This document shows, piece after piece, positions 19,090-31,249 of a DNA stretch of 64,000 nucleotides (positions are counted from its first letter, which is position 1; every line of letters begins with the position of its first letter). The notes below the pieces were generated by a model that was not told the DNA's origin, ran no database searches, and saw only the letters and a list, made by a program, of their open reading frames with translations. The position numbers and the translations under genes are program-made. This DNA is from Rhodamnia argentea (lineage: Eukaryota; Streptophyta; Magnoliopsida; Myrtales; Myrtaceae). The stretch lies in the NCBI RefSeq assembly GCF_020921035.1, contig NC_063151.1:34106934-34170933 (forward strand). The letters run 5' to 3'.

Positions 19090-21812
19090 TCACCGTGTTT
19101 GATTTGGTCGTGCCTTGATAAGAGGAGATGATGCTGGGGCCGGAGCCGTGAGAGACTTAGTATAAGCAATTGGCAGAGAAGCTAGTTTCTTGACCTTGCT
19201 CACATAGGCCCGCCTTGTGAAGTTGTCGTAGCCGTTAGCTTCGATTTCGTCCAGAATCTGACGGTACAGCAACAAAGATGCCCATACCTGCATTTACCGA
19301 AACCAAGACTTATTATCACCAGATCCGTCCACCCGAAATGAAAGAAAATGGGCTTCTGGTTATTTCAATTGATGGAAAGGTTTAGATGGCTGACCGGCCA
19401 TCTACTGGCTGCATTCAGCTCGGTCACTCCTTTCTCTGCCTCATTGAAGAACATCCTGGCCCTCCTGATCTGATTCTTCATGAAGAACCTCCATCTATCT
19501 GTGACCTTCCCCGCGAATATGTCGTCATCTGAAAGTCCCGCCTGGGCCAACTCATCTTGTGGCAGATAAATCCTTCCTCTTCTTGCACTGGAAAAAGGAG
19601 ATACAAGATAATCCGTCATTTAAGGTGCGACAGTCATGTACTTACGATTGATAACTGTCAAAACCACTGAAGGGTTGCGAACATTGGAGAGAAAGAGAGC
19701 AACGATCACATGATTTTGTGCCTGAAAAAGTGACCAGACATATCCCATTCGTACTTGAACCATTCCTCAGAGTGCTCCTTTTTCATGGAATAAAATGCAA
19801 TTCTATTGTAGACAAATGCAGCAGGCTTAGATATGTACAAGGTTCTTAGGGGATTGAAGAAGTCACGAGTTTCCAGTTATCCATGATAGGCCCAAATACT
19901 CAAATCAACCAGGGGACTTTCTCTCAGCTGTCATCATCATGGGATGGTTAGTGCCTTTGGTAAAACCTACTTTCACTTCACAGCAAGACATTCTTGACAA
20001 TTTTAGCAAAACATGTAATACTTAAAGCATATGAGAAATAGGATGGGTCTGAACTTACTCTTCGCCAACATCCCTGAGAATGTTTGTCAGCTGATTAGCA
20101 ATTCCCAAGGCCAATGCAGCATTATAGACACTCTCCGTCGTAGCCTGGGAGTCGGGTGCTATTCCCATGACTGGAACGCTCATCAAACCGACAGTACCCG
20201 CCACATAATAGCAATAGAGATATAGCTCGTCGAAGTTCTTGTATCGTGACTTCTTGAGGTCCATCCTCATCCCTTCAATCATGTCTTTAAATGGCTGCAA
20301 CAACAAAAGCAAAACCATGCGTCAGAGTTTCAGAAATACAAAGGCCCCTATGGCATGCCTCCTTGACGCTAGTTTAAACAACCCAAATGAGTTCATATTC
20401 CTATGATGTTCCAGATATAACTGTACTTGCAACCGCTCCAAAGCCATATCCTAAATGACAGAACAGAGAGATGTATCCAAAGAGTTCCTTGGAGACTGGA
20501 GAGAATGAGCCACCCCCATATGCAGCAAATTATGATGTTTCATGAAATGCTCCGACATGATTCATCAACAAAAGATTTCTTGAGCAAGATCCAAGACCTG
20601 GATGTCAACTGGGAATTTTACAACAGTATCCGATAAAGCAGCATCGAACATATCGAATGGACGCCCTTGAAAAAGTTCTTCCAACCTCGATCCCCACCTA
20701 TCTAAAGCAGTAGGTGTTATGTGTGAAGCATTAGGCCCGTCTACAAGTTCATCAGTCCTCCTGCACCAAACTGCAATCGTATGTGAAAAGTCAACATCAA
20801 TGGATGATTACAGCATTCTAGTCCCATACACAAGCTTCAGCCAATTAAAGTGAAATTGACCCGAAGTACCAAACTTTCACATGCCAAATGCCAAATATAA
20901 ACAAAGAAATTGCAGATTACTAAATGAAGAAGAAACCACCAAATTCGCTTACTTTGACAGGGACCTGGGTCACTTAGCTTCAGGCACTGAAATTCCTTTT
21001 CTAGTTTTTGCTTTCTATGTGATCAGCCAATTTTTTCCTACCAGCTAGTAAGGAGAAAATTATCTTTGAAACAGGCCAAACCAGTAAAACCTGTAAAGCT
21101 ATGGAGACTTTCAATGGAGTACTTTCAAAAAATGAGGCCACAGCATCCAACCCACCATATATCGCCCATATAGCTCTGCGCCTTTCCGGAGTCATGAGCA
21201 ACGTCCCTGCAAACCCAAAAATAAGCAGATAAGATCAAATCACCGGATTATACCTACCCAAAACCAAATCAATTTCTGGAAGAAACAAAGAGAAAAGAAC
21301 CCATAAGAATATCAAAGGAGTTTGATAATACGTATGAGAAAAGCAGATAAAGAAGGCTGATTTGGCTAACCCAAGTAAAAAGTCTTCGCATATTCAGCGC
21401 AGACCTCGCCGCATCTGTCATAAGCATCGCTCAACAAGCTCAAAGTCCCCGGAAGAACAATATCGGGTTTGACCTCCAGATTGGCCTTTGACCTCAGGCG
21501 CTCGCTCACCAGAGCCGCCTGCTTCAGCACCACGCTGTTCACCCTCTGCTCCGACGACACTGCCGCCGCGGCTTTTTCTTCCCCAGCTGTCGGGCTCGTA
21601 ATCAAGCTCGAGGGCGTGCTCGTGCTGCTCATCGAGCAACAACTCAGTTTCTGGCTTTTACCCTTGTTAGTCCTGTGGCTGAACACCTGCCGCCTCTCTC
21701 CAAGGACGAAGCTTGACGAATCCGAGAAGCGAAACGATTCGACAAAACCGAGGCTCGCGGGGATAGTCTCCGGGTTGAGGGCAGTCGCAACCCATGATAA
21801 TGTCGTGGGCAT
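19090..21812 (-). CDS. PSY: Phytoene synthase, copy B (conventional)
   Basis: Six exons on the minus strand, 21812-21371, 21206-21156, 20770-20598, 20294-20059, 19587-19395 and 19287-19090, give 430 aa. Exons 2-5 are exactly the same length as in copy A (51, 173, 236, 193 nt). The function is the first committed step of carotenoid synthesis in plastids. The mature domain is conventional: [19 protein letters not shown] with the first Asp-rich motif at residues 171-175, [36 protein letters not shown] with the second motif at 297-301, then [20 protein letters not shown]. The N-terminal 60-70 residues are Ser-rich and poorly conserved, as expected of a transit peptide. Exon 4 ends in a consensus GTAAGT donor. 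The C-terminal tail ([11 protein letters not shown]) is six residues longer than in copy A. This copy is the better candidate for the active enzyme. Confidence 0.95.
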
Positions 21813-27800: not shown

Positions 27801-29452
27801 TGCTGGCCCATATCTTTTCTTTGGCTCTTGGTTGGTTTGAAAGAGGCTGGCGAGTTCAACTGACCTTCATTCACAAAAGAAACTTCTGTGCAATCCCAAG
27901 CCAGATCAAAGTAACTTAGAAGCCAGGTGTCTATACTTCTTAACATCCAGCAGTTTTGCAATTTCTGTTGAGCATCCACTATTGGAGCACAAGGATAAGG
28001 CCTCAAGCCCTATTTTTCTTGTAGGATTATTTTATTGGATATTCCTTCATCTGTCGCTGTGGGACAATCCTTGATTGTTTAATGTGTTGTCTCCTCCATG
28101 AAGCTGTACACTTGCATTACTGATTCACAGTTTCGCTGGAATATTTGCACTGGGCATATATGGATGTGGCCATTCAACCACTTAGTGCATGCATCTTACC
28201 TACTGCCGTTCATATTGTGGTGAAATTACTTAGGCTTCAGAGTTTCGGTTCTGCCAGTAATGTAAGTCAGTGAAGAAAGATTCAGCCTGAGTTACCTCTC
28301 GAACATGTATGCCTATCTATGGTACTTATGATACCCAATCTTTTGTAAGTTGGGGTTGCCATTTCCGGTTTTATTCTTCAATCTGGCTGTTGGATCTGAA
28401 GCCCACGCTTGCAGAGTATCTCGTTTCCATAAATTTGTTGTTTAATTCTCCCTATTAGGTTTGATGATGTTAAAATAACTGATGTCGTAACTTCCTTCAA
28501 ATTCTGTATGTATCTGAAAATGAAAAAGTTCAGTTTCAAGTGGAATGGCCGAGAACTGGCCCTATCATCATTTGTTTGTGACGTCTTTAGTAAATTGTCT
28601 ACCAAGATAAGCTATAACGTTTAATGTAAATACCTACCTAGTCTGGCCGTCTTTTGTCACCTTAATAGGTCGAAAATAGTCTCGGTGCACCTTTCAGCTG
28701 GACCATTCTGTTTGGTCGAATAATCAGTATGGTCGGCCATTCCATACTATGTTCTTCTGATAATGAGGACAAGACAATCTCTAACGGTGTCCTGTCATAT
28801 GCAGGTTCTCTTGAGCTATGGAATGTACACTAATTTGGAGCTGCTGGAGCATTATGGTTTTCTTCTTGACAACAATCCAAACGACAAGGTATACATTCCC
28901 CTCGAACCTGGGGTGTCTTCTTGCAGCTCATGGCCGACAGAATCTCTGTACATTAATCAAGGTGGCGAGCCTTCTTATGCACTGTTGTCCACATTGCGAC
29001 TATGGGCCACCCCTTCAAACCAGCGGAGGTCTGTGGGGCATCTGGCATATTCAGGGTCTCAACTCTCTCCAGAAAATGAGATGCGCGTTATGCACCTAAT
29101 GTTGAAGTGTTGCAGCACCATTCTGCACAACCTGCCCACTTCAATTGAAGATGACCAACTTCTCCTATGTACCCTCAACCAAGTGGATGGTACCGATACC
29201 CCTGTCCAGCTTTTTGACGTGCTTTCGAAACTTGGAGCTGAAAGCCATGCCTTTTTAGAAACCCTTGGCCTGCGAAGCAGAGCTAGTGTTGCAGTATCGA
29301 TGTCTTGGAAGATCCAAAGGCAATTGGAGAGGTGGAAATTAGCAGTTCAGTGGAGGCTGAGGTATAAGAGAACGCTTGTGGATTGCATCACTTATTGTTC
29401 AAATGTAATTGACCGCATTCACTCTCCGGTGCCTCGAAATGGAATGTGCTGA
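24865..29452 (+). CDS. SDG40: SET-domain protein, SDG40-like (Rubisco LSMT/SETD class)
   Basis: Six exons, 24865-25034, 25157-25307, 25683-25814, 25917-26057, 26358-26642 and 28805-29452, give 508 aa, close to Arabidopsis SDG40. The N-terminal SET part starts at GRGLGAVRDVRKGE (about 57-70) and is split by an inserted helical region, as in Rubisco LSMT/SETD3-type lysine methyltransferases. The SET core follows with ISSRTLHVPWDEAGC and GDLFNY (Asn222) and ends at GEQVLLSYGMYTNLELLEHYGFL, with the catalytic-type Tyr298. After it comes a C-terminal substrate-binding-like helical domain to the stop. The predicted reaction is S-adenosylmethionine-dependent lysine methylation of a non-histone substrate; the substrate is unknown. 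Intron 5 is 2.16 kb and holds no other gene I recognise. All junctions are GT-AG, with exons 2-5 ending in phase 0. Confidence 0.92.
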
Positions 29453-30264: not shown

Positions 30265-30361
30265 GATGGATCAGACACCTGGCTTGGATTTCTCAAACGA
30301 GAAAAAGTTCGCGCAGTTTAATCAGCGTCGATCATCTGGGGAAATAATCATCATCTCCACC
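30265..30361 (-). ncRNA. Candidate C/D-box snoRNA 2
   Basis: On the minus strand the segment runs GGTGGAG, C box ATGATGA, a guide-length spacer, D' box CTGA (GACGCTGATTA), a C'-like TTTGAGA, and D box CTGA followed by TCCATC. The ends GGTGGA and TCCATC can form a 6-bp terminal stem (one G-U), the standard C/D snoRNA closure. Its close relative lies 276 bp away at 30541-30643 with the boxes conserved and the linker diverged, as expected of duplicated snoRNA genes. The rRNA or snRNA target was not identified. Confidence 0.65.
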
Positions 30362-30540
30362 TTATCTCAAACAAGAGAAAACCCTAATCCAATGTTCTAA
30401 TCTGTCGTGCCGATGCAAAGTTCTTTCCTAAAATCAGATCAGCTAGAAACCCAATTCCTTGTCGACTTAAGGGAATCAGCGAGACAAAAAGGAAACTTCA
30501 ATCGCTGCAAGAAAATCAATTTTTTTCCATGGAAGAGTGA

Positions 30541-30643
30541 AATGGATCAGCAAGACTGGCTTGGTTCCTCAACAAAGAGGAACGCTAAAGTAGCACAGTA
30601 TAATCAGCGTCGATCATCTGGGGAAATAGTCATCACCTCCAAA
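30541..30643 (-). ncRNA. Candidate C/D-box snoRNA 1
   Basis: On the minus strand it has C box GTGATGA, then CTATTTCCCCAGATGATCG, D' box CTGA, a C'-like GTTGAGG, a second guide region and D box CTGA (TTGCTGATCC). The ends TTGGA and TCCAT can pair for 4-5 bp. The C-to-D' block is almost identical to that of the candidate at 30265-30361, and the second half shares CCAAGCCAG. The internal Pol II-type promoter signals at 31037-31249 lie upstream on the same strand, so the two may be made from one transcript. Confidence 0.65.
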
Positions 30644-31036
30644 CCCCCTCTTCCGCAAAAACATTTCAGCAAACACTCGAGATGCGTCACTTTAGAAAAA
30701 GCATTCTTTTTCTAACCGAATGTCTCCAATCTGCCCGACCGTAGAGCGAGAGAAGAGCGCACTACGAGGCAGAAGCGGAGGCAGACACGGACGAATCTAG
30801 CGTCAGCTCATACACAGCGCTCACGGGAAGTCACAGCGCAGGTAATCAGTATTTGACGCTTTCACGACTCGCTCTCTCAATCAGAAGCAGCAAAAACACA
30901 AGGAAAAAGGAAAAAGAAAAACAGAGAGGATGCAGGGAAGAAGCAATCGATTCCCCCTCTTCAGTCGCCGCAGCAGAAGCACGATCTTTCACAGCCCTGG
31001 ACTACAATTGTAATTGAATTTGCCCCGGAACCCTCG
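30644..31036 (-). other. Leader of the putative snoRNA transcript
   Basis: On the minus strand this is a CT-rich, ORF-poor stretch between the predicted start (about 31010) and the first snoRNA candidate. It could be a non-coding exon/intron or an unprocessed leader. No further clear C/D box set was seen. Confidence 0.35.
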
Positions 31037-31249
31037 TTTTATATAGAACAGAGGCAGACGAAGCACAACCGCAAACCCTAGAAGTTGTAGAACGACGGCT
31101 CGACTTTGGAAAGTATTATGGCTTAGAGCATTGCCGGCTTTGATTTGGACACGTGTACGGCGGATGTGCTGATGCTTCCAAGAGGGAAATGAGCCCTATC
31201 CGGCCCGTGATATGAATTTGGAGACCGGCCCAATGCTCTGGTAAGCCCA
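31037..31249 (-). promoter_or_regulatory. Minus-strand promoter with TATA box, telo-box and site II elements
   Basis: On the minus strand TATATAAAA lies at 31045-31037, a telo-box (AAACCCTAG read on the plus strand) at 31073-31081, and site II motifs TGGGCC at 31232-31227 and TGGGCT at 31249-31244. This combination is the known signature of plant snoRNA and ribosomal-protein gene promoters. It points at the two snoRNA candidates 370-750 bp downstream. No minus-strand ORF of coding size follows it. Confidence 0.6.

Follow-up and report, generated by a model that had tools for sequence, protein, structure and literature searches.

A two-copy gene of the plant C/D box small nucleolar RNA (snoRNA) family snoZ103 (RF00149) lies on the minus strand at 30265-31249 of a 64-kb stretch of the Rhodamnia argentea genome (NC_063151.1, positions 34,106,934 to 34,170,933), hereafter the window. 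The two predicted RNAs, copies A and B, lie downstream of a TATA box, a telo-box, and two site II motifs (Table 1). Judged by its sequence, the locus is an ordinary, well-formed gene of a known family. Its pairing potential makes it plausible that snoZ103 functions at helix 73 (H73) of 25S ribosomal RNA (rRNA), the root of domain V, a role of which no account was found in the literature searched.

The RF00149 covariance model matched both copies over its full length (100/100 positions), the C and D boxes and the terminal stem included, at about twice its gathering cutoff of 44 bits (E values computed over 64 kb). By these scores, a chance origin of the two predicted RNAs is excluded. A first-pass annotation had called the locus undescribed-looking and had named an Rfam covariance search as a check; that description is not supported, because both copies belong to RF00149. 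Its account of the segments themselves was accurate: C and D boxes and pairing ends (TGGA/TCCA) are present in all the letters that it named, with one nonstandard pair in the terminal stem of copy A in the Rfam alignment, and the near-identity that it saw from the C box to a CTGA amounts to differences at 2 of 33 positions. No structural difference from snoZ103 was seen; here two copies share one promoter unit. When the copy A and copy B stretches were compared by blastn, only the snoRNA bodies were significantly similar, with identity in 80 of 101 columns; the four other matches were 7 to 11 nt long, with E > 1. In a search of the whole genome (346.7 Mb) that scored 52 of 28,738 first-look candidates, copies A and B were the only RF00149 matches among the matches listed. 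A 37-nt match, 97% identical to the 3' half of copy A (C6:14600037-14600073; L002, 1501-1537), was considered as an extra genomic copy; it covers only part of that half, no C box was seen beside it, and it was set aside as a stray fragment.

The upstream TATA box, telo-box, and two TGGGCY motifs that had been reported are all present on the same strand, at 31037-31249. A promoter rule combining TATATAAA, a telo-box, and at least two site II motifs in either orientation, no more than 250 nt upstream, was satisfied once in the window and in none of 100 Markov-resampled windows, both strands counted, the rule having been set post hoc. As the first-pass annotation stated, no open reading frame (ORF) stands behind the promoter: no minus-strand ATG ORF of at least 40 amino acids was found between 29912 and 31364. 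No coding host gene was identified either, although ORFs on the minus strand from 22 to 30 kb were not tested. A telo-box and site II motifs within 1 kb, with no coding ORF behind them, characterize plant telo-box/site II snoRNA genes and are found here. In Arabidopsis, this motif pair marks 82 loci encoding 184 known snoRNAs (PMC4660826), which are other genes than the R. argentea locus but have the same promoter motif pair and the same multi-RNA layout. At the level of sequence, these features support the earlier proposal of a noncoding, dicistronic C/D snoRNA gene under a site II/telo-box promoter. A second telo-box, TAGGGTTT, lies between the copies on the minus strand at 30386-30379, ~20 nt upstream of copy B.

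The CTGA letters that the first-pass annotation had taken for the D' box are present, but the box is probably misplaced, with D' instead being the NNGA-type AUGA. This AUGA follows CCCC at a distance of 2 nt and precedes UCGAC, which is where the SNORD12 model consensus has CAGA. With D' at AUGA, the CTGA would overlap the proposed C' box, by 3 nt in copy A. Minimum-energy folds place a stem-loop after C', of 7 bp in copy A and 6 bp in copy B.

With D' at AUGA, the guide UUUCCCC, upper case in the Rfam consensus, would direct D'+5 to 25S G2395 (yeast numbering; Gm2396 in Arabidopsis) through 7 bp with assumed target letters, checked only by printed residue identities. Six rDNA copies were checked; five contain stretches of N and there is a deletion in the sixth, L022, and the H73 site was in none of those examined. 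Because no full 25S is available among them, the target used is a short conserved 25S piece of assumed sequence, which we take to be the H73 site. Compared with print, this piece has the right base at yeast positions 2392, 2395, 2417, and 2421 and at Arabidopsis positions 2392, 2396, 2410, 2411, and 2422 (Arabidopsis numbering taken as yeast + 1). All seven distinct residues agree, a pattern occurring at 0 of 3,509 rRNA positions examined. Against this assumed piece, each copy forms three collinear Watson-Crick segments of 7, 8, and 7 pairs that share one nucleotide and total 21 nt. The partner of segment 2 adjoins that of segment 1 on its 5' side, and segment 3 pairs with the most 5' part of the site. 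This extent of pairing was reached by none of 3,525 rRNA windows examined (maxima of 14 and 13) and by none of 300 Markov shuffles of each copy. The 25S of L022 (C6:803500-810500) aligns to the large-subunit rRNA model as two fragments and lacks a large part, and this rDNA copy seems to be a decayed repeat.

The site proposed here is served by other snoRNAs. Schizosaccharomyces pombe snR107 methylates 25S G2483, equivalent to yeast G2395, and human SNORD12 methylates G3878, while yeast snR190 pairs with H73 around G2395 without methylation and is presented as a pre-60S chaperone removed by Dbp7 (PMC8536666). The SNORD12 model has the same guide core, the same spacing to GAUCGAC, and the same C' position as both copies. 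A stem-loop after C' (for snR107 given in print as a prediction only), another antisense stretch ahead of D (putative here), and the same proposed 25S site are common to SNORD12, snR107, snR190, and the R. argentea RNAs, and human SNORD12/B/C also have a common noncoding host, ZFAS1. There are differences: the primary duplex here is 7 bp, snR107 has, in print, CCUA as its D' rather than an NNGA such as the AUGA proposed here, and no U14 match occurs in the window, unlike in S. pombe and Saccharomyces cerevisiae. For a domain I element comparable to box B of snR190, there were only scattered, uncontrolled matches in the 25S parts examined (e.g., 10 nt with 2 G-U pairs, in copy B alone). As a locus, this is a routine snoRNA gene. 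If true, a function at H73 would give the little-described snoZ103 family a target, join it to a snoRNA family whose comparison in the literature consulted covers only human and two yeasts, and allow the chaperone role of RNAs of the snR190 type to be tested in plants.

Several observations weigh against a function at H73. Conservation in the Rfam consensus does not extend to the middle segment, the SNORD12 model (RF00581) scores 22.5 and 19.6 bits, below its cutoff of 43 bits, and sR39 had a better E value than SNORD12. In print, Arabidopsis Gm2396 is credited to SnoR28 (RF00355), with a 7-bp main and an 8-bp extra pairing, among four weak, less certain cases. The sR39 result and a looser control of the pairing make the H73 reading slightly less likely and an orphan guide slightly more so. 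The first-pass annotation had suspected an orphan guide, an explanation that we consider unlikely but worth keeping in view. It would accommodate a SNORD12 similarity that is below cutoff and not unique, as well as family-wide conservation of pairing in segments 1 and 3 only, and the rRNA examined comprised parts of 18S and 25S. In the register of that annotation (guide ending CGACG before CTGA), no convincing target was found in these rRNA parts or in ten usable small nuclear RNA (snRNA) copies of U1, U2, U4, U5, and U6. The scan took in 13 snRNA copies, of which L023, L033, and L037 were excluded as wrong strand; U2 copies L027 and L028 and most listed snRNA places lay outside it. Of 100 shuffled guides, 18 reached the best adjacent rRNA pairing of that guide, and the best adjacent snRNA pairing (13 nt, including 1 mismatch and 3 G-U pairs) involved copy B only and two of three U4 copies. 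With D' at AUGA, an orphan guide is doubtful: UUUCCCC fits H73, three collinear segments fall at the same site, and guide, D', GAUCGAC, and C' follow the order of the SNORD12 model.

The complementarity search suggested earlier left the D-box guide (CAAGCCAG), like the first D' guide, at shuffle level in the rRNA examined, and the ten snRNA copies gave it no convincing target either. That it targets the peptidyl-transferase loop of 25S is improbable: it forms 9 bp (copy A) and 8 bp (copy B) with the 25S letters of L022, but the D+5 residues of the two copies are neighboring and different, and the best scores were reached by 15 (A) and 20 (B) of 100 shuffled guides. Seven Arabidopsis 25S sites are printed as unassigned, and the loop position is presumably not one of them. 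Least probable is that the acting molecule is a longer, stable noncoding RNA with the snoRNA bodies as its domains, as has been claimed for Arabidopsis lncCOBRA1 (PMC9175010). About 390 nt separate the TATA box from copy A, and lncCOBRA1 likewise is an intergenic transcript that carries two C/D RNAs, but its snoRNAs are described as SNORD59-like, and the copies here are alike in the snoRNA bodies only.

Table 1. Features of the snoZ103 locus (window coordinates).
Feature	Position	Strand	Basis
snoZ103 copy A, C/D box snoRNA, 101 nt	30542..30642	-	RF00149, 87.3 bits, E 1.3e-16, model 1-100
snoZ103 copy B, C/D box snoRNA, 95 nt	30266..30360	-	RF00149, 87.0 bits, E 1.5e-16, model 1-100
C box GTGATGA, copy A	30636-30630	-	sequence
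C box ATGATGA, copy B	30354-30348	-	sequence
D box CUGA, copy A	30547..30550	-	sequence and Rfam alignment
D box CUGA, copy B	30271..30274	-	sequence and Rfam alignment
Proposed D' box AUGA (NNGA type), copy A	30614..30617	-	SNORD12 model alignment
Proposed D' box AUGA, copy B	30332..30335	-	as for copy A
Proposed C' box UGAUUA, copy A	30601..30606	-	aligned to UGuUGA of SNORD12 model
Proposed C' box UGAUUA, copy B	30319..30324	-	SNORD12 model alignment
Putative guide segment 1 UUUCCCC, copy A	30620..30626	-	upstream of proposed D'; 7 bp at H73, assumed target
Putative guide segment 1 UUUCCCC, copy B	30338..30344	-	7 bp at H73, assumed target
Putative antisense segment 2 CGCUGAUU, copy A	30602..30609	-	8 Watson-Crick pairs, assumed target
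Putative antisense segment 2 CGCUGAUU, copy B	30320..30327	-	8 Watson-Crick pairs, assumed target
Putative antisense segment 3 CCAAGCC, copy A	30558..30564	-	7 Watson-Crick pairs, assumed target
Putative antisense segment 3 CCAAGCC, copy B	30281..30287	-	7 Watson-Crick pairs, assumed target
TATA box TATATAAAA	31037..31045	-	sequence
Telo-box, reverse orientation, TAGGGTTT	31073..31080	-	sequence
Two site II motifs TGGGCY (TGGGCT 31249-31244, TGGGCC 31232-31227)	31227..31249	-	sequence

An H/ACA RNA in the leader (30715-30865) was considered and rejected: two hairpins fold there (z of -0.34 for a longer stretch and -1.42), by eye, their internal loops seemed too small to form a pocket, and the eight Rfam matches listed with E values of 10 or less included no H/ACA family. 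Each copy is followed by a stretch resembling a 3' splice site, also judged by eye (near 30509 and 30256). A Pfam scan of eight nearby ORFs matched two. A Rubisco LSMT substrate-binding domain (PF09273, E 8.6e-8) lies on the plus strand at 28724-29452, in a gene convergent with the snoRNA unit. A squalene/phytoene synthase domain (PF00494, E 2.7e-26) lies at 20055-20321 within a gene around 20-22 kb, on the same strand as the snoRNAs and about 9 kb further on.
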